Assembly: GCA_016934035.1 (NCBI GenBank)
Contig: JAFGTP010000048.1
Coordinates: forward strand, 1-64,000
From: Fidelibacterota bacterium
Lineage (GTDB): Bacteria > Fidelibacterota > UBA2242 > JAFGTP01
DNA: 64,000 nt
Direction: 5' to 3'
Shown here: piece after piece, positions 37,817-49,468 of the stretch
How the letters are laid out: every line of letters begins with the position of its first letter
How positions within the stretch are numbered: position 1 is the stretch's first letter
Notes under the pieces: generated by a model
What the model saw: only the letters and a program-made list of their open reading frames with translations
Database searches by the model: none
Told to the model about the DNA's origin: nothing
Made by a program: the position numbers and the translations under genes

Positions 37817-39841
37817 CTATTTCATCAAATTGATTTTCATCGTATTCATTATCCTGTCACCAATCTGCAATGCAGCGATGTAGACACCACTTGGCAGTTG
37901 GTTGCCATAGGCGTCACAGGCATTGAACGGCACAGTATGCCAGCCGGTTTGCAGGTGTGAAATATCAATCACGGCTACCAATCTTCCGCGGAGGTCAAAT
38001 ATCTTTAGCAATTTTACACCGGCATAAAGTTGTGAATTGATATAGATCCGAAAGTTCGTTGTGGGATTAAACGGGTTCGGATAATTGCCGGCAATATAAG
38101 ATTCCGCAACCTGCACTTTTCCTTTTCCATCAATTGCCGTAAAAACATTTTCATAATCAGCAACATAGGCCGTGTAAATACAGCGAATATTGTAATTCAG
38201 GCTGAGATCAATCAATTGTTGTTTTAATTCCGGTGTCTCACCATAGATTTCGATTTCCCACTCAATGCGGTCGATCATGGATTTTGCCCAGAATTTTTCG
38301 ATAAATTTGCAGGTATCATTTTTAGAGGTAAAATTCAGGATGGAATCATAACTTTTGTAGCCGTTGACTGAATTTCCACCAATGCTCAAAGGAACATTGC
38401 CCGGTAAATCATAACGGCCGGTGGTAAAAAAATAGGAGCCTGAATAATAAGACGGGATTTTGGCCGGATTCATATCCGTAAGCGTTGTCGCCCCGCCATA
38501 TTCCATAACAACATCTTTCAAGACAGGCCGGCTGATCCTTCCCCAGAGTTGATCAATTTTATGATAACGATTGTCATTGTCATCGATATAGGTCACAAAG
38601 CCGAAATTTTCTGCGGCAGTCATTTCCAGTTGTGCATAGCTGAGGTCGTCACCAAGGCCTACCGGAAAAATACCGGTTTTATGGGTATTGTAATCAAAAA
38701 CTTCTCCGGGGTCAACCAGGCTTCGGCCACCGGTAAACACAACCAGGGCATTATTAAACTCATCATCGTTAATCTGAGACAGGGCCTGTTTCAGAGCGTA
38801 GTCCATATCTGAGCCACTACTGGCATAGCGACTTGCCAACCAGCTTTTGGCGTTGGTGATGTTTGCCGGCGAAGCTTTCTGACATTCATTGTAACATTTA
38901 TGGACTGAGGTCGTGAAAGCCATAATATTAAACTCATCCTCACTGTCCAGTTTGTCCAGCATATCGGAGATACTTTCAATGCTTTCTTCCAGTTTGACGC
39001 CGTACATGTCCCATGAAGTTGAGAGCAGAAAGATAATTCTTTTTTGAAAAAGGCTGTCAGCGGAAACATCCAGTGCCGGTTTTACAAAAAGCCCGAAATG
39101 GCCATCAGCAGTATCATTATTTACCGAGAAAAAATCAACAGCCAGGTCCTGCTGACTGATAGAATATTCAAAAGTTATGTTCTGGTTGGGATGAAACTTT
39201 GGTTCTGTCAATTGCAGTTTCAATTCTTTTTCAGATTCAGACAATCGGACAAAGCCGGGAAAATTCGGAATATCATAGCCGGTGATGGGTGCTTCGGATT
39301 TCACATGGACATTCATCTCCAGCAGATCATAAGGCTGGGTTACAAAGTCGCCGGTATTCAAGGGAATTTCCTGTAAGCATTTACCCTCGTTAAAATCCAT
39401 TGTACTAATATAATGCAACTCCGTTCTCTGAATCTCCTGGGCTTTGATGCCTTTCAGCAGGATTTTGATGCCGTTATTGCCGATATATTTTGTCACTCTG
39501 GCGGCAAGGTCACTCTCACCATGTCCGGGATTCACGGCCTGCTCTTTGACTTTCAATACTGCTTCATAGACGATATCATTGTACCAGTACAAAAATTTAG
39601 TCGCTTTGGCCTCATCAGGCAGCGGGTAGGAAAACACAGCATCAGTGGAGTCATAGGATTCATTGACAAATTCCTGGTATATGGCAGTTTCAGCAATCAA
39701 ACCATTTATGTTAATATTGATTCTTGTCATTCGGTTACGCAGGAAATCCTTGGGATAATCTTCATCTGCCGGCATTAGCAAACCGTCAGCAAAAATAGAA
39801 GTAACAAGTAAAAGTGTAGTAATAAAAATTCTGTATTTCAT
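37817..39841 (-). CDS. Secreted VIT-vWA protein with degenerate MIDAS
   Basis: The layout is the same as the downstream paralogue: signal peptide (FITTLLLVTSIFA), VIT domain (LIAETAIYQEFVNESYDSTDAVFSYP-like), vWA domain and a T9SS-type sorting domain (NYPNPFNPTTNF, ending NTMKINLMK). In the vWA domain the metal site is lost: the DxSxS position reads LLSTSWDM and the later TDG-like position reads VFTGGRSL. It therefore probably does not bind Mg2+ in the classical way. The start at 39841 follows GGAGG at five bases. It is probably a partner of the other two vWA proteins. Confidence 0.88.
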   Translation of the reverse strand: MKYRIFITTLLLVTSIFADGLLMPADEDYPKDFLRNRMTRINININGLIAETAIYQEFVNESYDSTDAVFSYPLPDEAKATKFLYWYNDIVYEAVLKVKEQAVNPGHGESDLAARVTKYIGNNGIKILLKGIKAQEIQRTELHYISTMDFNEGKCLQEIPLNTGDFVTQPYDLLEMNVHVKSEAPITGYDIPNFPGFVRLSESEKELKLQLTEPKFHPNQNITFEYSISQQDLAVDFFSVNNDTADGHFGLFVKPALDVSADSLFQKRIIFLLSTSWDMYGVKLEESIESISDMLDKLDSEDEFNIMAFTTSVHKCYNECQKASPANITNAKSWLASRYASSGSDMDYALKQALSQINDDEFNNALVVFTGGRSLVDPGEVFDYNTHKTGIFPVGLGDDLSYAQLEMTAAENFGFVTYIDDNDNRYHKIDQLWGRISRPVLKDVVMEYGGATTLTDMNPAKIPSYYSGSYFFTTGRYDLPGNVPLSIGGNSVNGYKSYDSILNFTSKNDTCKFIEKFWAKSMIDRIEWEIEIYGETPELKQQLIDLSLNYNIRCIYTAYVADYENVFTAIDGKGKVQVAESYIAGNYPNPFNPTTNFRIYINSQLYAGVKLLKIFDLRGRLVAVIDISHLQTGWHTVPFNACDAYGNQLPSGVYIAALQIGDRIMNTMKINLMK

Positions 39842-39854
39842 GTCAACCTCCACC

Positions 39855-42161
39855 TTATTTCAGGTACAATATTTTATGGGTTCGCATAAACTTATCGCCA
39901 TTTCCGTCAATGCCGGCTAACTGAATGATGTACATTCCGGTACTGACGTCATGGCCCTGCATATCACGCCCATTCCAGGCGATTTTGTGATATCCTGGTG
40001 AATGCGGAAGTGTGTATTCCATAATCTTTTTACCAAGAAGATTGTAGATGTACATTTTGGTTTTGGAAAGGTCCTGAAGGTTGAGCACAAAATTGATCCG
40101 TTCATTAAAGGGATTCGGATAGACTGTCAGCACTTCTTTGGATAAAGTACCATCAGATGGCACATCATAGGTAAAAATGGATTGGCAGCCCAGACCGTTG
40201 TAGCGCAGTTTCAGGTAAATATCATTTTGGGTGTTTTCCAGGAAAATACTGCCATAGGAAATCATATATTTGTATTCTGACCCCATATTGGCAATATCCA
40301 GAAGGATATCTTTAAAATTTCCATTGATATCATAAAAATTTCCCCCTGTAGGATTGACAATGGGATTGAACCAGTCGGTTTGCAACGAGTTCAGGCCAAC
40401 ACCGTGAACAGTTATTCCCATTTCCAGCATTTTTGCTACCACCTGTTCTTTGCTGTATTGGGTAGTGGGATAAGCTTCGTCGGTTATCCAGACAATTGAG
40501 CGTTTGCTTCTGTCCCGCCAACTCAATTCTGTAGCTCTCATCAAGGCTGAGGGTGAATCTTCAACTCCACCCCAAAGCACAACACTGGAAAGATTATTTT
40601 TTATCTGATCAAGGTCATTGGTAAAATCCCAGACATCATCCACTGTCGTACTAAACGTGATTACACCCACTTGAAAATCATAGCCTTTGTCCAGTAATCT
40701 TTGAGCAAAATCATTGATATTATCTTTCACTGCAGCAATTTCATTTCCCATGCTGCCACTGCAATCCATGACAAAGACAATATCCGCCAGGTTGGATCCA
40801 TCAGACTCAAAAAAACCTAGTTCAAAATCATTGATTCGGGTTTCATTTTCATAGAGGAATATGTTCTCTTCAGAAAGGTCTGTGATTTTGCGTCCGAGGA
40901 GATTGTTTTCCACATTGAATACAAGGCTGACTTCCGGAAAATCGGAAGTGATCAGAGAATCGCCGTAGATCGTCAGCCCACTGTCGCTGACCGGGGTCTC
41001 CGGAAGATAGATATAACGTAATATTTCATCCTGAATTTCGTCATCAGCCGAAACCAAGGCTTTGACCGGCAGAACTAAATCTTCATAGGCAATATTGGCA
41101 TTGATCTGAATTCTTTGAAACAGGGCCTGTTTTCCGCTCAGGTCCAGGTTATAATTTTCAAACTCCGCCTGCAATTTGTCAGGCAAATCAAAAGAAATAG
41201 TTACATTTTCGGGTGCCGATTCTTCACCTTTAATAATTTCCATATAGGTGGATTGGGTCCGGGGAAACATGGAACCATCAACCAGATCGAAAAATACGGG
41301 CAGGTCCCAGCGCGTAAAAAAGGCCCTGGAAAAATCCGCCTCCGGAAAGGTAATGGTCATGGCATTGACCAATGAATCGCCCACTGCTACTGATTGTGCG
41401 GGCCAGTAAAATTTCAATAGTAAATCAAAAATGGTTTGGATTTCTGAATCGCTCATTTCCGGTTCCATCTGTTTGTAGGCGAAGGGCCAGTTGTCAGCCA
41501 CTATTTTCGTAAAATTGATTTCCGATGAGATGTTAACGCCGAGCCCCCTGGCGCCCGTTGGTTTTTCCCAAATTTCCAGGGAACCCGAATTTTCAAATAC
41601 CCTTCTTTCAGCCCCAATCTCGCCATTGGTACGGATCCATCCGTCACCGTATTTGCCAATACCCGGATCAATCATCATAGCGCTGGAAAAATCATGTGGG
41701 ACCTGATCATCATTGATGATTGTTGTGGTCAAAGTTATGGAATGGTCCGGTTGGAGTGACAGGGAAAAGCGATAGGCTATCGATGCATCATTGGTCCCGC
41801 AGATTGATAGTATATTTTCACTTTTTTTAACATAGCAGTCAGCAAAAAAATCTTCGGTTTTATACCAGTTGCCATCAACTGAAAGGAAAGGAAAAGAAGT
41901 CCTGGCATAGGGATGACCATAGGTAATATTGCAATGGTCGTCAAGGGATGAGGCGCTGCTGCCACTCTGAGTGCCCAGCGTAAAATATCCGCCGTTGCCC
42001 AGGGATATTTCAAAATATCCATCATCATAGCATTCATAATTTAACCAGCTTGCTGCTTTACTAAGTCCCAAAAAATCAATATCATAATCGGCTTTTCGAA
42101 CATAATTCGAGGCCCCCAGCGCGCCTGCCAGCATTAAAATAAAAAATAATTTCCACCTCAT
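39855..42161 (-). CDS. Secreted vWA protein with T9SS-type sorting domain
   Basis: A signal peptide (LFFILMLAGALGASNY) is followed by about 430 residues of unrecognised beta-rich sequence without a clear VIT domain. A vWA domain then shows an intact metal site (VMDCSGSMGNEI; later WITDEAYPTT). The C-terminal sorting domain carries VYPNPFNERINF and ends MRTHKILYLK. It is the first of three vWA genes; the next starts 14 bp after its stop. The spacer upstream holds a CRP/FNR-type site shared with the divergent sodN gene. Confidence 0.85.
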   Translation of the reverse strand: MRWKLFFILMLAGALGASNYVRKADYDIDFLGLSKAASWLNYECYDDGYFEISLGNGGYFTLGTQSGSSASSLDDHCNITYGHPYARTSFPFLSVDGNWYKTEDFFADCYVKKSENILSICGTNDASIAYRFSLSLQPDHSITLTTTIINDDQVPHDFSSAMMIDPGIGKYGDGWIRTNGEIGAERRVFENSGSLEIWEKPTGARGLGVNISSEINFTKIVADNWPFAYKQMEPEMSDSEIQTIFDLLLKFYWPAQSVAVGDSLVNAMTITFPEADFSRAFFTRWDLPVFFDLVDGSMFPRTQSTYMEIIKGEESAPENVTISFDLPDKLQAEFENYNLDLSGKQALFQRIQINANIAYEDLVLPVKALVSADDEIQDEILRYIYLPETPVSDSGLTIYGDSLITSDFPEVSLVFNVENNLLGRKITDLSEENIFLYENETRINDFELGFFESDGSNLADIVFVMDCSGSMGNEIAAVKDNINDFAQRLLDKGYDFQVGVITFSTTVDDVWDFTNDLDQIKNNLSSVVLWGGVEDSPSALMRATELSWRDRSKRSIVWITDEAYPTTQYSKEQVVAKMLEMGITVHGVGLNSLQTDWFNPIVNPTGGNFYDINGNFKDILLDIANMGSEYKYMISYGSIFLENTQNDIYLKLRYNGLGCQSIFTYDVPSDGTLSKEVLTVYPNPFNERINFVLNLQDLSKTKMYIYNLLGKKIMEYTLPHSPGYHKIAWNGRDMQGHDVSTGMYIIQLAGIDGNGDKFMRTHKILYLK

Positions 42162-42239: not shown

Positions 42240-42255
42240 TGTGATGTAAATCACA
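42240..42255. promoter_or_regulatory. CRP/FNR-family operator between vWA operon and sodN
   Basis: TGTGA-N6-TCACA (42240-42255) is a perfect match to the CRP symmetric core, and the same bases contain TGAT-N4-ATCA, the FNR-like core. It is 79 bp upstream of the vWA gene start and 112 bp upstream of sodN, so it could control either or both. Which regulator binds cannot be told from sequence. Confidence 0.6.
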
Positions 42256-42366: not shown

Positions 42367-42825
42367 ATGAAAAAACCAATGATTATTTTTGTTATATCTC
42401 TTATGATTTTGCCTGTCTTACTTTCAGCCCACTGTCAGATTCCCTGTGGAATTTATGATGATGAACTTCGTATCAGCCTGCTGAAAGAACACGCCAAAAC
42501 CCTGGAAAAATCCATTAGTGAAATTCAGGCCCTCACAACCGGCACGGTGAAAAATGATAACCAACTGGTACGCTGGATTATCAATAAAGATGAACATGCC
42601 GATATGATCAGCGAGATTGTGAGTTATTATTTTCTGGCTCAAAGGATCAAGGAGCCTGAGGGAACGGACAAACACGCCATGGAACATTACGAAACAAGAT
42701 TAAAACTGCTTCATAAAATTTTGGTCCTCTCCATGCAAGTCAAACAAAACGATGACATCGAGCATGTCAATGAACTAAAAAAATATATCCGAAAGTTTGA
42801 AGAGGAATACATAAAAAAGCCTTGA
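42367..42825 (+). CDS. sodN: Nickel superoxide dismutase
   Basis: The mature N-terminus HCQIPCGIYD is the nickel hook of Ni-SOD: His1, Cys2 and Cys6 bind Ni and form the active site that converts superoxide to H2O2 and O2. It lies after a 21-residue leader with a hydrophobic core (MIIFVISLMILPVLLSA), ending in LSA just before the His, which looks like a normal Sec signal peptide. The remainder is a four-helix bundle of about 130 residues (HAKTLEKSISEIQAL, DEHADMISEIVSYYF). No sodX peptidase gene adjoins it. The ribosome site is AAAAGGAG. Export to the periplasm is inferred. Confidence 0.93.
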   Translation: MKKPMIIFVISLMILPVLLSAHCQIPCGIYDDELRISLLKEHAKTLEKSISEIQALTTGTVKNDNQLVRWIINKDEHADMISEIVSYYFLAQRIKEPEGTDKHAMEHYETRLKLLHKILVLSMQVKQNDDIEHVNELKKYIRKFEEEYIKKP

Positions 42826-42827
42826 TT

Positions 42828-42864
42828 AAAAAAAGCCTTGCAGGTCCTCAAAACCAGCAAGGCT
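42828..42864 (-). terminator. Rho-independent terminator of the groES operon
   Basis: Read on the minus strand, the stem AGCCTTGC / GCAAGGCT is followed by seven T. It lies in the short spacer between the convergent sodN and groES genes and ends the minus-strand transcript. Confidence 0.8.
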
Positions 42865-43167: not shown

Positions 43168-43740
43168 TTATTTTCCATTTATTTGCAATAATTCGTTAAT
43201 TCTTGGCTTATCAAATCCGACAATGATTTCTCCGTCGATATCTGTCTGCGGTACACCGGTTTGACCGGTCCGGTTTTGCAAGTCTCTGGCTGCATTGGGG
43301 TCCGCCGCAACATCCACATCGGAAAACCTGACCCGGTGCTTTCTCAGATAGGCTTTTAACTGGTTGCAATAAACACATGTGGGCGTTGAATATACCGTCA
43401 CACTGGGCTGTCTGACCTCTTCACCCTTTTCATCAAGCACTGGCGCTTCGTTGAAAATCATTTCATAATAGGATTTCTTTTGTTTGCCATAAATAACATT
43501 AAAATTTTCATTTTTACGAATAACCAGCACTGCAGGGACCGAATCAATTTTGTATATCGGATGAATGGTTTTGATTTCCGAGGCATTGACGGAATAAACC
43601 GGCACATCGGGATAATCATTTTTCAACTCTTTAAAAATTTCCAGAGTCTCGAGGCTTTTCTGGGATTTTTCCGTGTAAAAAATAACAATTTTGATGGTTT
43701 CTTCTTTTTTTAATTGGTCAATATTTTTTACCGCTTCCAT
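43168..43740 (-). CDS. Thioredoxin-like/glutaredoxin fusion protein
   Basis: The N-terminal 100 residues resemble a thioredoxin fold without a CxxC (IVIFYTEKSQKSLETLEIF, DSVPAVLVIRK). The C-terminal 80 residues are a glutaredoxin domain with the active site STPTCVYCNQLKAYL, the GVPQTDIDGEIIVGFD cis-proline region and helix end. It would reduce disulfides or glutathione-like mixed disulfides in the cytoplasm. The start at 43740 has GGAG nine bases upstream; 43755 is possible. It forms an operon with the GroES gene, which suggests a role in oxidative stress. Confidence 0.85.
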   Translation of the reverse strand: MEAVKNIDQLKKEETIKIVIFYTEKSQKSLETLEIFKELKNDYPDVPVYSVNASEIKTIHPIYKIDSVPAVLVIRKNENFNVIYGKQKKSYYEMIFNEAPVLDEKGEEVRQPSVTVYSTPTCVYCNQLKAYLRKHRVRFSDVDVAADPNAARDLQNRTGQTGVPQTDIDGEIIVGFDKPRINELLQINGK

Positions 43741-43803
43741 TGAACACATCTCCATTTATTTATTCAATTTTTCGGTATCTATGATCGGTTTGCCAATGAT
43801 TGG

Positions 43804-44562: not shown

Positions 44563-45726
44563 CTATTGCATCCTTCTCGATGCTTTCAGCAAGGCTTCCA
44601 TGTAATAATAATCTGCATAATTCAAGGGAACATCGATTTCTGATTGTCCCGGCTTACTACCCACTGAGTGCATCAGGATGAAATGGTTGTTTTCTCCGGG
44701 TTTTGCGAGATATTTTTCACTGGACAGGGACTGCAATATTTTGATCGCCGCATTGAGATATTTTCCGCTGCTTTCTGAACCATATTTACTGAGATCAAAA
44801 AAGGCCGAAGCCATGATTGCGGCGGCCGATGCATCCCGGGGTTCACTGTCGCTATCCACATCAAAATCCCAGTAAGGCACCATATCATGGGGAATATGTT
44901 TTAATATAAATTCAGCGATCTTTTCAGCAAGCTTCAGATATTTCAAATTGCCGGTTTCTCGATACATCATCGTAAAGCCGTAAAGTCCCCAGGCCTGCCC
45001 ACGGGCCCAGGCGGAGCTATCGGACAGTCCCTGCCAGGTCTGTTTGATACGGGGTTGGCCGGTCTTCGGATCATAATCCACCACATGATAGGTCGAAAAA
45101 TCCTCACGAAAGTGGTTTTTCATTGTGTTATCAGCATGAGCAACAGCAATCTTAAAAAATGAAGAATCCCCGGTCTCATGGAAGGCCCACAGCAGCAGTT
45201 CCAGGTTCATCATATTGTCTATAATCACAGGGTATTGCCATTTTTTTTGATTCCAGTCCCAGGACCGGATACATCCGACTTTCGGGTTGTAGCGGGTGCA
45301 CAGGCTTTTTGCTGATTGAATCAAAAGTTCTCTGTATTGTTTATTTTTAGTTATTCGATATCCATTGCCGTAACTGCAATACATCATAAAACCAATATCA
45401 TGGTTTCCTGTAAAATATTGAATATCTTCTAGGAGAGATGAATATTTCTCAGCTGCTGCCTTCCATTTTTCATCGCCGGAATATTGATAAAGATACCACA
45501 AGGCGCCCGGAAAAAAACCGCTTGTCCAGTCTTCAGGCTCAACCAGTTTTAATTCACCCTTTTCAATGGTTCTTGGCAACAATTTCTTTCCATCAATTTC
45601 TACCAACAGGGCATTATATTGTTGCTGGGCGATTTTCATGACCGAGTCAATCGGGATGGTCTTGTTTTCACTGCTACAGTTGCTCCAAAGTACCGCCATA
45701 AAAATAATCAGCAATAACATCCTCAT
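44563..45726 (-). CDS. GH88 unsaturated glucuronyl hydrolase
   Basis: This enzyme hydrolyses the unsaturated uronic acid left at the non-reducing end after lyase action. The (alpha/alpha)6 barrel is indicated by the helical repeats; the two conserved aspartates lie in GNHDIGFMMY and IIDNMMNLELL, and the DSSAWARGQAWGLYGF segment is typical. An N-terminal signal with LWSNC may be a lipoprotein site, though the lipobox is poor. Length (387) fits. AAGGAG lies before the ATG. It is the last gene of the lyase cluster, 11 bp after a PF05426 lyase gene. Confidence 0.93.
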   Translation of the reverse strand: MRMLLLIIFMAVLWSNCSSENKTIPIDSVMKIAQQQYNALLVEIDGKKLLPRTIEKGELKLVEPEDWTSGFFPGALWYLYQYSGDEKWKAAAEKYSSLLEDIQYFTGNHDIGFMMYCSYGNGYRITKNKQYRELLIQSAKSLCTRYNPKVGCIRSWDWNQKKWQYPVIIDNMMNLELLLWAFHETGDSSFFKIAVAHADNTMKNHFREDFSTYHVVDYDPKTGQPRIKQTWQGLSDSSAWARGQAWGLYGFTMMYRETGNLKYLKLAEKIAEFILKHIPHDMVPYWDFDVDSDSEPRDASAAAIMASAFFDLSKYGSESSGKYLNAAIKILQSLSSEKYLAKPGENNHFILMHSVGSKPGQSEIDVPLNYADYYYMEALLKASRRMQ

Positions 45727-45736
45727 TTTTATCTCC

Positions 45737-46909
45737 TTATTTTTTTATCCATAAAACAGGCTCACGAATCGGAAAATTACGTAAGCCTTCATCACTTTCG
45801 GGTAATGGCTTTAACGTTTTCCACAAATCAATATATTCCTGATTTCCATAAGCCAAACCAGCACATAACAATGCCGGATGACGAACCGGCCACTCATCCC
45901 AGTACATAACATCCGGCGGATATGGCCATTTTGATTTATCATAAATGAAAGGAAAAATAAAAGCCATTGCTTCTTCCATTCCAACATATTTCTCAGGCAT
46001 TTTGTAGTTCCACAAATTGTCCTTTTCTGTGGATAAAATATGACAGACCATCGCCATCATATCCAAATTGAACAGGGAATAACCATAGGGCTTTGTGCGA
46101 CTGAGTTCCAATGGAAAACTTCCATCAGATGCCAATTGATTGGGTAAAAGTACTGTTTTGTAGCGATTTTTACAATAATCAAACAATTTTTCATTACCAA
46201 TAAGTTTTGAGAATTCGGCCACTTGCATCACCCAGCAGGTGCCATGATTATTTTTGCGCTCTCGCTCATCAATGCCATATTCATGGGTGGTCATCCATTC
46301 CAGAAAATCGGCAAACCATAGTTTCATCGCTTTAAAATCAGAATCATCTATCATTTTGTTTTTGGATAAAATTTCAATGCAGCGTGCTGGTTCAACCAGG
46401 TGAATGCCATCAATCAGGCCGACACCCCTTCCCGGACAGATGCCTTTGATAGCTTGTGCAAAATTCATATTGGGATTCATCTTTGTGTCACTATTTACAA
46501 ACCATGCTTGCAGATGTGCGATTGATTTTTGGGCATAGTTTACATCCTTTGTGATTTTATAGGCTGCCGTAAGATTTGCCACCTGAATACTCATTCGACG
46601 TAATACTTCACGATGTTCGGTAAAATTATCAGGATTGCTCATCCCATCACGACGAATATAGGGTCGTCCAACCGGATTTTCCGGGTCCGGCCACCAATAG
46701 TCGCCTTCGGAATAAAAATCATGAATTCCTCCAAGACTTCTGTCGCAGGTGAATTCAGTAATCGTGATTGGTTCTTCTATTAGATATTGATTGGCTGATG
46801 CCAGGATTCGTTCTTTGTCGATTTGAACAACATTCACATCAATTTTATGTTTCGATGAGCAACCGATTGTAAAGAACATGATGAGTAGTAATAATGTTAT
46901 TTTTTTCAT
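45737..46909 (-). CDS. PF05426-type polysaccharide lyase lipoprotein (PL38/PL5-like)
   Basis: The protein opens with a lipoprotein signal (FFTIGCSS). The hallmark GDYWWPDPENPVGRPYIRRDG, NSDTKMNPNMNFAQAIKG, GRGVGLIDG and KNNHGTCW motifs place it in the alginate-lyase superfamily with an (alpha/alpha) toroid fold. Related enzymes of PL5 and PL38 cut alginate or glucuronan by beta-elimination. A conserved His and Tyr (NNHGT; KPYGYSLFNLD) are likely catalytic. It is paralogous to the gene at 51358-52569. The cellular site is probably the outer membrane or periplasmic face. Confidence 0.85.
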   Translation of the reverse strand: MKKITLLLLIMFFTIGCSSKHKIDVNVVQIDKERILASANQYLIEEPITITEFTCDRSLGGIHDFYSEGDYWWPDPENPVGRPYIRRDGMSNPDNFTEHREVLRRMSIQVANLTAAYKITKDVNYAQKSIAHLQAWFVNSDTKMNPNMNFAQAIKGICPGRGVGLIDGIHLVEPARCIEILSKNKMIDDSDFKAMKLWFADFLEWMTTHEYGIDERERKNNHGTCWVMQVAEFSKLIGNEKLFDYCKNRYKTVLLPNQLASDGSFPLELSRTKPYGYSLFNLDMMAMVCHILSTEKDNLWNYKMPEKYVGMEEAMAFIFPFIYDKSKWPYPPDVMYWDEWPVRHPALLCAGLAYGNQEYIDLWKTLKPLPESDEGLRNFPIREPVLWIKK

Positions 46910-46944
46910 GGTGTCCTAAAAAATAAAAACCTCTCCTTTTGTTC

Positions 46945-47020
46945 CCCCTCCTTGGCAAGGAGGGGATTCAGGGGTGATCATATTAAATTATTCATCAGTG
47001 TATATCTGTGTAATTCTGTG
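46945..47020. repeat. Dispersed-repeat-like hairpin and 10-nt-period motif
   Basis: The palindrome CCCCTCCTT-GGC-AAGGAGGGG (46945-46965) is followed by a stretch with a 10-base period (tcagtg / tctgtg / tctgtg at 46995, 47005, 47015). Both resemble motifs that recur between genes in many FCB and planctomycete genomes. They fill the 117-bp spacer before the GH2 gene's stop codon. Confidence 0.55.
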
Positions 47021-47026
47021 GCTAAA

Positions 47027-49468
47027 TTAATTTTTTATCTCCAGATAACTTCCTTTAAAATCCTGAGTCCTGGCTTCAATGATACCGGACAAACCCGGCT
47101 CAGGCACATATTCAATATGCGCCCTTCCACTGGCAAATTCAAGAATTCGGGAACCTGTCGGTGTTCCCAGGTTTTCTTTCAAATATCCGCCCCCGTTACA
47201 ATCAAAATAGACCCGTTCATTAAAATCCAGGCAGGTGGTACCCTGTTTGTCAACAACTCTCGCAGTGATCAGATAATTTCCATTGTCCAGTTTTTTAGCC
47301 GTCAACAGAATTTCTTCAGGTGTTCCGATTTTTCGAGCAGTATAAGTAATTTCAATTTTGTCAAAACAGGCTTGCTTTTCACCATTATATCCAATCGCCA
47401 AAATTTCATTTTTCCCATCATCAAATTCAACGTTCCAGTGATATCCTGCTGCCGGAAAATCATTAATATCACGCCTTTTTTTCCCATAAGAAAGGCCATT
47501 GACCACCATTTCCACCTCCTGACAATTGCTGAAGACACAAAGTTCTTTCTTTTCACCGGGTTTTCCGTATCTTTCGGGCCATGTGTGGGATTCGATATAG
47601 CAGAAAGCAGGATTATTTGTCCAATAACTTTTAAACACATAGTAGGCATCTTTGGGGTTTCCATCACGGTCAACCAATCCCTTCTGGTTCATGTAGGGAA
47701 TTGGATTTTCAGGACGGAGAGGTGTACCAAAATCCTTGAATGCCCACTGTGCATTGCCGATAAACCAATCCAATTGTTCTGTGGTTTTCAGGTGCCAGTC
47801 AAAGAGGTCAACAATATAATTTTCGCTCCAGTCACCCACTGATGCAATGCGGTCCACATTGATCATATTAGGACTTTCGGCCCATTCATCCTCTTTGACC
47901 TGGCCTTCGCCGGAAATGGGATTTTCTGAATGACGCCCGACATGGCTGGAACCGCCATATTCTGCATGGAGAAAATGTCTGTATTTTGCACGGGAGGTAA
48001 GCAAAGCTTTTTCATAGGTTTTGTAAACACCGGAATACCAGCCGGCCCAGATTGAGGGTGAAAAGACATCAGTAATATCAGCACCATCGTAAAATTTACG
48101 CATGGTGGTTTTGCGTTGCGGGTCCATTTTGTGAGCTATGTCATTAAGTTCTTTTGCAAAGGTCACCAGTTTTTCTTTGTCATCACCACCTTCGAAATCC
48201 GGCAGCCAGTACATTTCATTGCCAATGGACCAGAGTATAATGCTGGGATGGTTGAAATTCTGATTGATCTGCTCTTCGAATAATTGTTGTGTATTTTCCT
48301 GCCAGACATCATTCCCTACTCCACCCCGACACCAGGGCAATTCATCCCAAACCAGTAAGCCGAGTTCATCGCAGGCTTTATAGATTTCCGGGTCTTGTGG
48401 ATAATGCGCCAATCGAACAAAATTTGCGCCCATATCCTTGATCATCTCCATATCCCGGCGATGAAGTTCATTGGGCATAGCGGCTCCGTAACCCGCCCAT
48501 TCCTCATGACGATGGGTCCCCCGCAACAACAACCTCCTGCCGTTCAGATAAAAGGGCCCCTTGTCTTTAAATTCAAACCAGCGATATCCAAATTTTTGCA
48601 ACAATTGATCACTGTTTTCCAAAGTGATTTCCAGTGAATAAAGATTTGGTGAATCTGGCGACCAAAGCTGCGGATTTTTCAAAGTTGGCAAATCAATTTT
48701 CACCTCATTTTGCCCTTTGTTCAATTTTTGGTCTAAAGCTTTTTCACCAACAACCAAACCGTCGTTATTGAGTAATTTTATGATTATAGATTGAGTTTTC
48801 CCGGTATTGCTTTGTACTGATACAGTCACATAAGTTTGCGCCTCTTTTTCAGTGACTTGCGGTGTAAAAATTTTCATTCCGAAAATATGAACCGGGTTTA
48901 ACACTTTCAGATAAACGTCTCGGGTAATGCCGCCATAAATGAAAAAATCAGATTTCTGTGACGGAATAATTTCACGATTGATGGAATTATCTACTTTCAC
49001 CCGAATAGAATTGGTTTTGCCAAATTTCACGAAATCAGTAATATCCACTTCAAATCCCACATAACCGCCCACATGTCCACCGGCGCGTTTGTCATTCACA
49101 AAAACATCACATACTATATTTACACCTTCAAAACAGAGATATAACTTCTGATCGGATTTAAGTTTCGGAATAAAAATTTCTTTTTTGTACCAGCTGATAT
49201 CCCGACGATAACCCGGATTATTGTCCGTGGCATCAAACGCATTCCAGGTATGCGGCAAATTGATATTTTGCCAGGGCACCGCAGAATTTCCCAGGTCAGT
49301 CATCGTGGGACAATTATCTTCCAGATACTGCCAGTCGTTGTTCAGTAAAAATATTAGTCGATGCGGGGCAATCTCAATTTTTCCCACGTAGGGACGAGTG
49401 ACATTTCCAAACAGAAACAGGCCGTTTAGCAGAAGTAACAAAATGGATAATTGAATATTACGTTTCAT
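47027..49468 (-). CDS. GH2 glycoside hydrolase (beta-galactosidase/glucuronidase family)
   Basis: A Sec signal precedes the sugar-binding jelly roll (WQNINLPHTWNAFDATDN), an immunoglobulin-like domain and a TIM barrel with GTHRHEEWAGYG, NFVRLAHYPQDPEIYKACDELGL in part, acid/base Glu418 in SIGNEMYW and nucleophile Glu503 in HAEYGG. C-terminal domains include a DUF4982-like region. Family members release beta-linked galactose, glucuronate or mannose from oligosaccharides. Given its neighbours, a uronic-acid or galactose side chain is a fair guess. It is 813 residues and probably periplasmic. Confidence 0.92.
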   Translation of the reverse strand: MKRNIQLSILLLLLNGLFLFGNVTRPYVGKIEIAPHRLIFLLNNDWQYLEDNCPTMTDLGNSAVPWQNINLPHTWNAFDATDNNPGYRRDISWYKKEIFIPKLKSDQKLYLCFEGVNIVCDVFVNDKRAGGHVGGYVGFEVDITDFVKFGKTNSIRVKVDNSINREIIPSQKSDFFIYGGITRDVYLKVLNPVHIFGMKIFTPQVTEKEAQTYVTVSVQSNTGKTQSIIIKLLNNDGLVVGEKALDQKLNKGQNEVKIDLPTLKNPQLWSPDSPNLYSLEITLENSDQLLQKFGYRWFEFKDKGPFYLNGRRLLLRGTHRHEEWAGYGAAMPNELHRRDMEMIKDMGANFVRLAHYPQDPEIYKACDELGLLVWDELPWCRGGVGNDVWQENTQQLFEEQINQNFNHPSIILWSIGNEMYWLPDFEGGDDKEKLVTFAKELNDIAHKMDPQRKTTMRKFYDGADITDVFSPSIWAGWYSGVYKTYEKALLTSRAKYRHFLHAEYGGSSHVGRHSENPISGEGQVKEDEWAESPNMINVDRIASVGDWSENYIVDLFDWHLKTTEQLDWFIGNAQWAFKDFGTPLRPENPIPYMNQKGLVDRDGNPKDAYYVFKSYWTNNPAFCYIESHTWPERYGKPGEKKELCVFSNCQEVEMVVNGLSYGKKRRDINDFPAAGYHWNVEFDDGKNEILAIGYNGEKQACFDKIEITYTARKIGTPEEILLTAKKLDNGNYLITARVVDKQGTTCLDFNERVYFDCNGGGYLKENLGTPTGSRILEFASGRAHIEYVPEPGLSGIIEARTQDFKGSYLEIKN

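Follow-up and report, generated by a model that had tools for sequence, protein, structure and literature searches.

How does a nickel superoxide dismutase (Ni-SOD) obtain its N-terminal histidine when its precursor carries a Sec-like leader and no sodX lies beside its gene? This question is raised by the sodN-like gene at positions 42367–42825 of the window, the whole 64-kb stretch of DNA analyzed here. The free amine of His1 is a nickel ligand in Ni-SOD. The initial annotation had proposed that signal peptidase I could both export and mature the enzyme, which would place nickel loading outside the cytoplasm.

The Ni-SOD gene and its surroundings

The gene, on the forward strand (42367–42825), is a complete open reading frame with an ATG start, closely preceded by an AGGAG-like site, and encodes 152 AA plus stop. 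Pfam Sod_Ni (PF09055) matched it with an E value of 3.6e-27 and 95.9 bits (curated cut-off of 25), and the NCBIfam SodN equivalog TIGR02753 gave 42.5 bits, below its cut-off of 90. From these two scores the product is a member of the family that is distant from classical SodN. A single-sequence search of the PDB with the window protein returned no match at 0.001; a profile of its relatives retrieved the Streptomyces Ni-SODs (1q0d, E 4.5e-13), aligned from His1 to the C-terminus. The AlphaFold model (pLDDT 89.6) has the four-helix bundle of Ni-SOD, and its top Foldseek matches were Ni-SOD 1t6u and relatives, with a probability of 1.00, a TM score (target) of 0.77 and an E value of only 0.026.

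The nickel-binding hook of the family (His1-Cys2-x-x-Pro5-Cys6-Gly7-x-Tyr9) is present in full. It reads HCQIPCGIY, mature His1 to Tyr9, at 42430–42456 of the forward strand and is followed by DD. Its residues H22, C23, P26, C27, G28 and Y30 of the precursor are invariant across 60 aligned proteins of both leader types described below. Identity to the short-leader relatives is 20–24% over the alignment. The rest of the bundle, with helices at residues 28–58, 64–90, 102–127 and 131–149, is encoded by 42457–42822 of the same strand. The Sod_Ni match, the hook and the modeled fold bear out the identification of the frame as a Ni-SOD in the initial annotation.

The start codon is preceded, at a distance of about 110 bp, by a perfect CRP-type palindrome, TGTGATGTAAATCACA (42240–42255), which is the single match of its type in the 64 kb against 0.07 expected. 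A conserved CRP/FNR site was sought upstream of the relatives and not found, so that a regulatory role of the palindrome is only possible. Between sodN and groES, the latter on the reverse strand, a hairpin (42834–42864; −16.7 kcal/mol, z −3.96) may serve as a two-way terminator, an assignment that is tentative because the forward strand has no strong T run. With this reservation, the hairpin suggests that sodN is a single-gene unit. Neighborhood clustering of 81 loci found no partner gene conserved in at least five of them; the recurrent groups were sodN and the shadow frames antisense to it.

Other genes of the window are described here for completeness. A thioredoxin-like and glutaredoxin domain fusion (43168–43755) overlaps a GroES-like gene on the same strand, and a cluster of alginate lyase, GH88-like and GH2 genes (44563–49468) is probably devoted to degradation of uronic-acid polysaccharides. 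Upstream of sodN, positions 37817–42161 encode tandem VWA-domain proteins, one with a VIT domain, which bear FlgD-Ig or Por-secretion-type C-terminal tails.

The leader and its predicted cleavage site

The first 21 residues, MKKPMIIFVISLMILPVLLSA (42367–42429, forward strand), are predicted to form a Sec signal peptide, with two Lys after Met1, a hydrophobic core and LSA directly before His22, the mature His1. The core reaches a mean Kyte-Doolittle hydropathy of 3.37 over a 10-residue window, unlike the short non-hydrophobic leader of classical SodN, and the residues at −3 and −1 are L and A. The positive N-region, the core and the admissible −3 and −1 residues together have the character of a Sec and signal peptidase I substrate; this assignment is rule-based, from the hydropathy core and the (−3,−1) rule, and is cruder than SignalP. 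The hydrophobic, Sec-like leader of 21 residues described in the initial annotation was thus recovered. Two other routes were considered and rejected. The leader has no RR for the Tat pathway, and with a His in front of it Cys2 does not match the lipobox pattern of lipoproteins (signal peptidase II).

Comparison with relatives supports a predicted cleavage site directly before His1. The (−3,−1) rule is satisfied directly before His1 in 111/111 hydrophobic-leader proteins, whose −1 residue is always A, S, G or T, and at shifted cut positions in 0–49 of the 111. With later reads the figure became 151 of 152, although the compared sequences are related, so that the 152 rows are not independent events. 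The sole exception, L181, has a hydrophobic leader with Pro at −1; this protein may be cut elsewhere, or its sequence may contain an error. Leader sequences vary widely while the hydrophobic core is kept.

The initial annotation had pointed to LSA before the histidine. The tripeptide is there and provides the best signal peptidase I site, but the end of the leader by itself does not tell the two types of precursor apart, since the short-leader, SodX-linked precursors also have Ala before His1 (12/12). What discriminates is the core together with the missing sodX. Core hydropathy is 2.0–3.9 in hydrophobic-leader proteins vs. −1.0 to 0.3 in sodX-linked ones, with no overlap.

Leader type and the presence of sodX

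The assembly to which the window belongs (4.2 Mb, 69 contigs, 88.55% complete) contains one sodN only, and no sodX lies beside it. A genome-wide search with the SodX model TIGR02754 gave only partial matches, covering profile positions 53–87 and 55–87 with 22.3 and 17.8 bits (cut-off of 63.25). The ORFs that contain them, of 269 and 281 AA, encode ordinary signal peptidases I, with PF10502 matches at E values of 1e-38 and 3e-40 and the GSM and NYxKR motifs that hold the Ser and Lys. No SodX-sized gene was found in this assembly. The SodX-dependent arrangement of classical SodN, in which sodX is in the genome and usually adjacent, was therefore not seen here, in agreement with the initial annotation; as the genome is 88.6% complete, the absence is not absolute.

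We extended the comparison to the phylum of the window genome, in which Sod_Ni is present in 84 of 245 genomes. Among the 83 Ni-SOD leaders read, 72 were hydrophobic and 11 were short and hydrophilic. Full-length SodX, searched for in 80 of the Sod_Ni genomes, occurred in exactly 10, each time immediately downstream of a short-leader sodN. Thus 10 of the 11 short-leader genes have an adjacent full-length sodX, and the eleventh (L187) lies at the end of its contig. In the 69 genomes whose Ni-SOD is solely of the hydrophobic-leader type no full-length sodX was found, and in the three genomes that carry both types sodX accompanies the short-leader copy. The counts strongly support a complementary distribution of leader type and sodX across the phylum. 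The window gene had been presented as a single case; the case itself holds, but it is no one-off and belongs to a large group that spans many phyla.

When the window protein was searched against GTDB species genomes, 80 loci were recovered, all with hydrophobic leaders; this sampling favors relatives of the query. They came from Desulfobacterota, Planctomycetota, Omnitrophota, Acidobacteriota, Aminicenantes, Zixibacteria, Calditrichota, Elusimicrobiota, Fusobacteriota, Aquificota and others, and the type is present in named genomes of more than ten phyla. Full-length, high-scoring SodX was found in 3/50 of the named GTDB genomes; in two its gene adjoins an additional sodN with a short leader, and in the third it is the orphan Holophagae gene discussed below. 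In a tree of 124 mature sequences, hydrophobic- and short-leader proteins are split by one branch with 100/100 support; the tree is unrooted, with long branches and few columns, and gives no order of age between the types. The mature proteins also differ in cysteine content. Those with hydrophobic leaders tend to have two or three cysteines, and 59 of 111 have the hook cysteines only, whereas short-leader proteins mostly have 4–7. Few cysteines in the mature Sec-type proteins would fit an exported protein in an oxidizing compartment.

Proposed maturation and known systems

From these sequence features we infer that the precursor is most probably exported by Sec, cut by signal peptidase I before His1 and supplied with nickel outside the cytoplasm, in line with the interpretation of the initial annotation as far as sequence can speak to it (the Sec-like leader, the best site before His1 and the lack of a detected sodX). 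Sec substrates cross the membrane unfolded. Proper nickel binding would then have to follow export, provided that the cut is made by signal peptidase I. In this scheme Sec would translocate the precursor through the inner membrane in unfolded form, and one of the two housekeeping signal peptidases I would cut after LSA and free the amino group of His1. The new N-terminus, together with Cys2 and Cys6, could then take up nickel in the periplasm, where the four-helix protein would assemble. SodX would not be needed, as its task is taken over by the signal peptidase in this proposal.

The same leader could be read otherwise. It appears very unlikely that the precursor stays in the cytoplasm and is cut there, as in classical Ni-SOD, by another protease or by an undetected sodX product. 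The incomplete assembly leaves some room for this, as do the Ala at −1 that classical precursors share and an orphan SodX-like gene (L138, 1297–1806) in one Holophagae genome whose only sodN, on another contig, is of the hydrophobic-leader type. Yet full-length sodX is missing from all 69 hydrophobic-only genomes of the phylum, no partner gene is conserved nearby, and the core has been kept despite the drift of the leader sequence. About as improbable is a protein that is exported and not cut at His1, either remaining as a membrane anchor or starting with Ala-His-Cys, with a different nickel site or another role. In the window protein a cut one residue upstream (LLS|AHC) satisfies the (−3,−1) rule as well, and the relative with Pro at −1 points the same way, but that upstream position conforms in only 11 of 111 relatives vs. 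111 of 111 for the site before His1, and His1, Cys2, Pro5, Cys6, Gly7 and Tyr9 do not vary.

We also consider it unlikely that the protein is exported and cut but is no active superoxide dismutase, acting for example in periplasmic nickel binding or storage. Its score below the SodN equivalog cut-off is compatible with such a role, as is the replacement of Asp3 of the classical enzyme by Gln/Glu in the hydrophobic-leader type; the positions aligned with Lys64 and Arg47 differ from 1q0d too, and other exported His1 proteins are described as only carrying nickel (DUF4198, PMC12537917). Against it stand the complete hook with its invariant Tyr9 and the match of the fold to Ni-SOD, and the Arg47-aligned residue varies in sodX-linked relatives also (Gln, His, Tyr). 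Export, cleavage before His1 and nickel binding in the periplasm thus remain the preferred account, with superoxide dismutase as the probable activity.

Neither Fe/Mn-SOD, Cu/Zn-SOD nor the DUF4198 nickel-binding protein was found in the own genome of the window. It does encode, in a region at L145, 972–2364, a leaderless desulfoferrodoxin-type superoxide reductase flanked by ferritin-like and rubrerythrin-like ORFs; the names of these two ORFs come from reading the sequence and not from a family search. A flavodiiron-like fragment adjoins this group. As neither of the other dismutases was found and the desulfoferrodoxin is leaderless, a division of labor is plausible, in which Ni-SOD would remove superoxide outside the cytoplasm and the reductase would serve the cytoplasm.

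More broadly, it is likely that the branch as a whole, in its many phyla, is exported by Sec, matured by signal peptidase I alone and loaded with nickel in the periplasm, with no dedicated maturase, and this may be the usual arrangement in many anaerobe-rich phyla. Judged from sequence, the hydrophobic-leader Ni-SODs would form a large, little-described group that does without a dedicated activating protease. If so, these organisms gain a periplasmic superoxide dismutase without copper, and general secretion would be an uncomplicated way to create an N-terminal metal site. It then has to be asked how a thiolate-nickel center gets loaded outside the cytoplasm, where reduced cysteines and nickel must come together; neither a conserved neighboring gene nor a DUF4198 protein of the genome offers a candidate for this step. 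A 2021 survey described cyanobacterial Ni-SOD as cytoplasmic and interpreted the absence of sodX as a hint that a strain might not be able to use Ni-SOD (PMC8346466); for the hydrophobic-leader branch the latter reading would be wrong.

In the literature we found no description of the distribution of leader type vs. sodX, although the diversity of Ni-SODs is the subject of Dupont et al. 2008, where leader types may have been noted before. Ni-SODs with signal peptides are on record: in work published in 2025, the signal peptide of a Roseiconus lacunae Ni-SOD served to probe for similar sequences, and many Ni-SODs were retrieved (PMC12537917). That protein (WP_230780104.1) belongs to Sod_Ni and has the signal peptide MTRLLTATLALMFTASIASA immediately followed by His; we liken it to the window protein from the published description. 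It served only as a probe, and the passages seen contain no discussion of SodX or nickel loading. A cultured fusobacterium, Ilyobacter polytropus DSM 2926, has a 44% identical protein, WP_013389192.1, already annotated as superoxide dismutase [Ni], with the leader MNKLVLILSLLILIPNYLFA directly before HCEVPCGIYDDELR. Its gene lies on a 962-kb plasmid downstream of a cyclic nucleotide-binding-domain gene and has no adjacent sodX. Desulfoluna limicola is another cultured organism with a Ni-SOD of this type.

Classical Ni-SOD (SodN of Streptomyces; 1q0d, 1t6u) shares with the window protein the HCxxPCGxY hook, the four-helix bundle and the Ala before His1. It differs in its short non-hydrophobic leader and in the sodX next door, whereas the window protein has a Sec-like leader, no detected sodX and a residue 3 that is Gln/Glu in its type. 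The likeness to the exported metalloproteins LPMO, CopC and DUF4198 is one of principle only, as their folds are unrelated and their metals or ligands differ; in them, too, signal peptidase I exposes a metal-binding N-terminal His.
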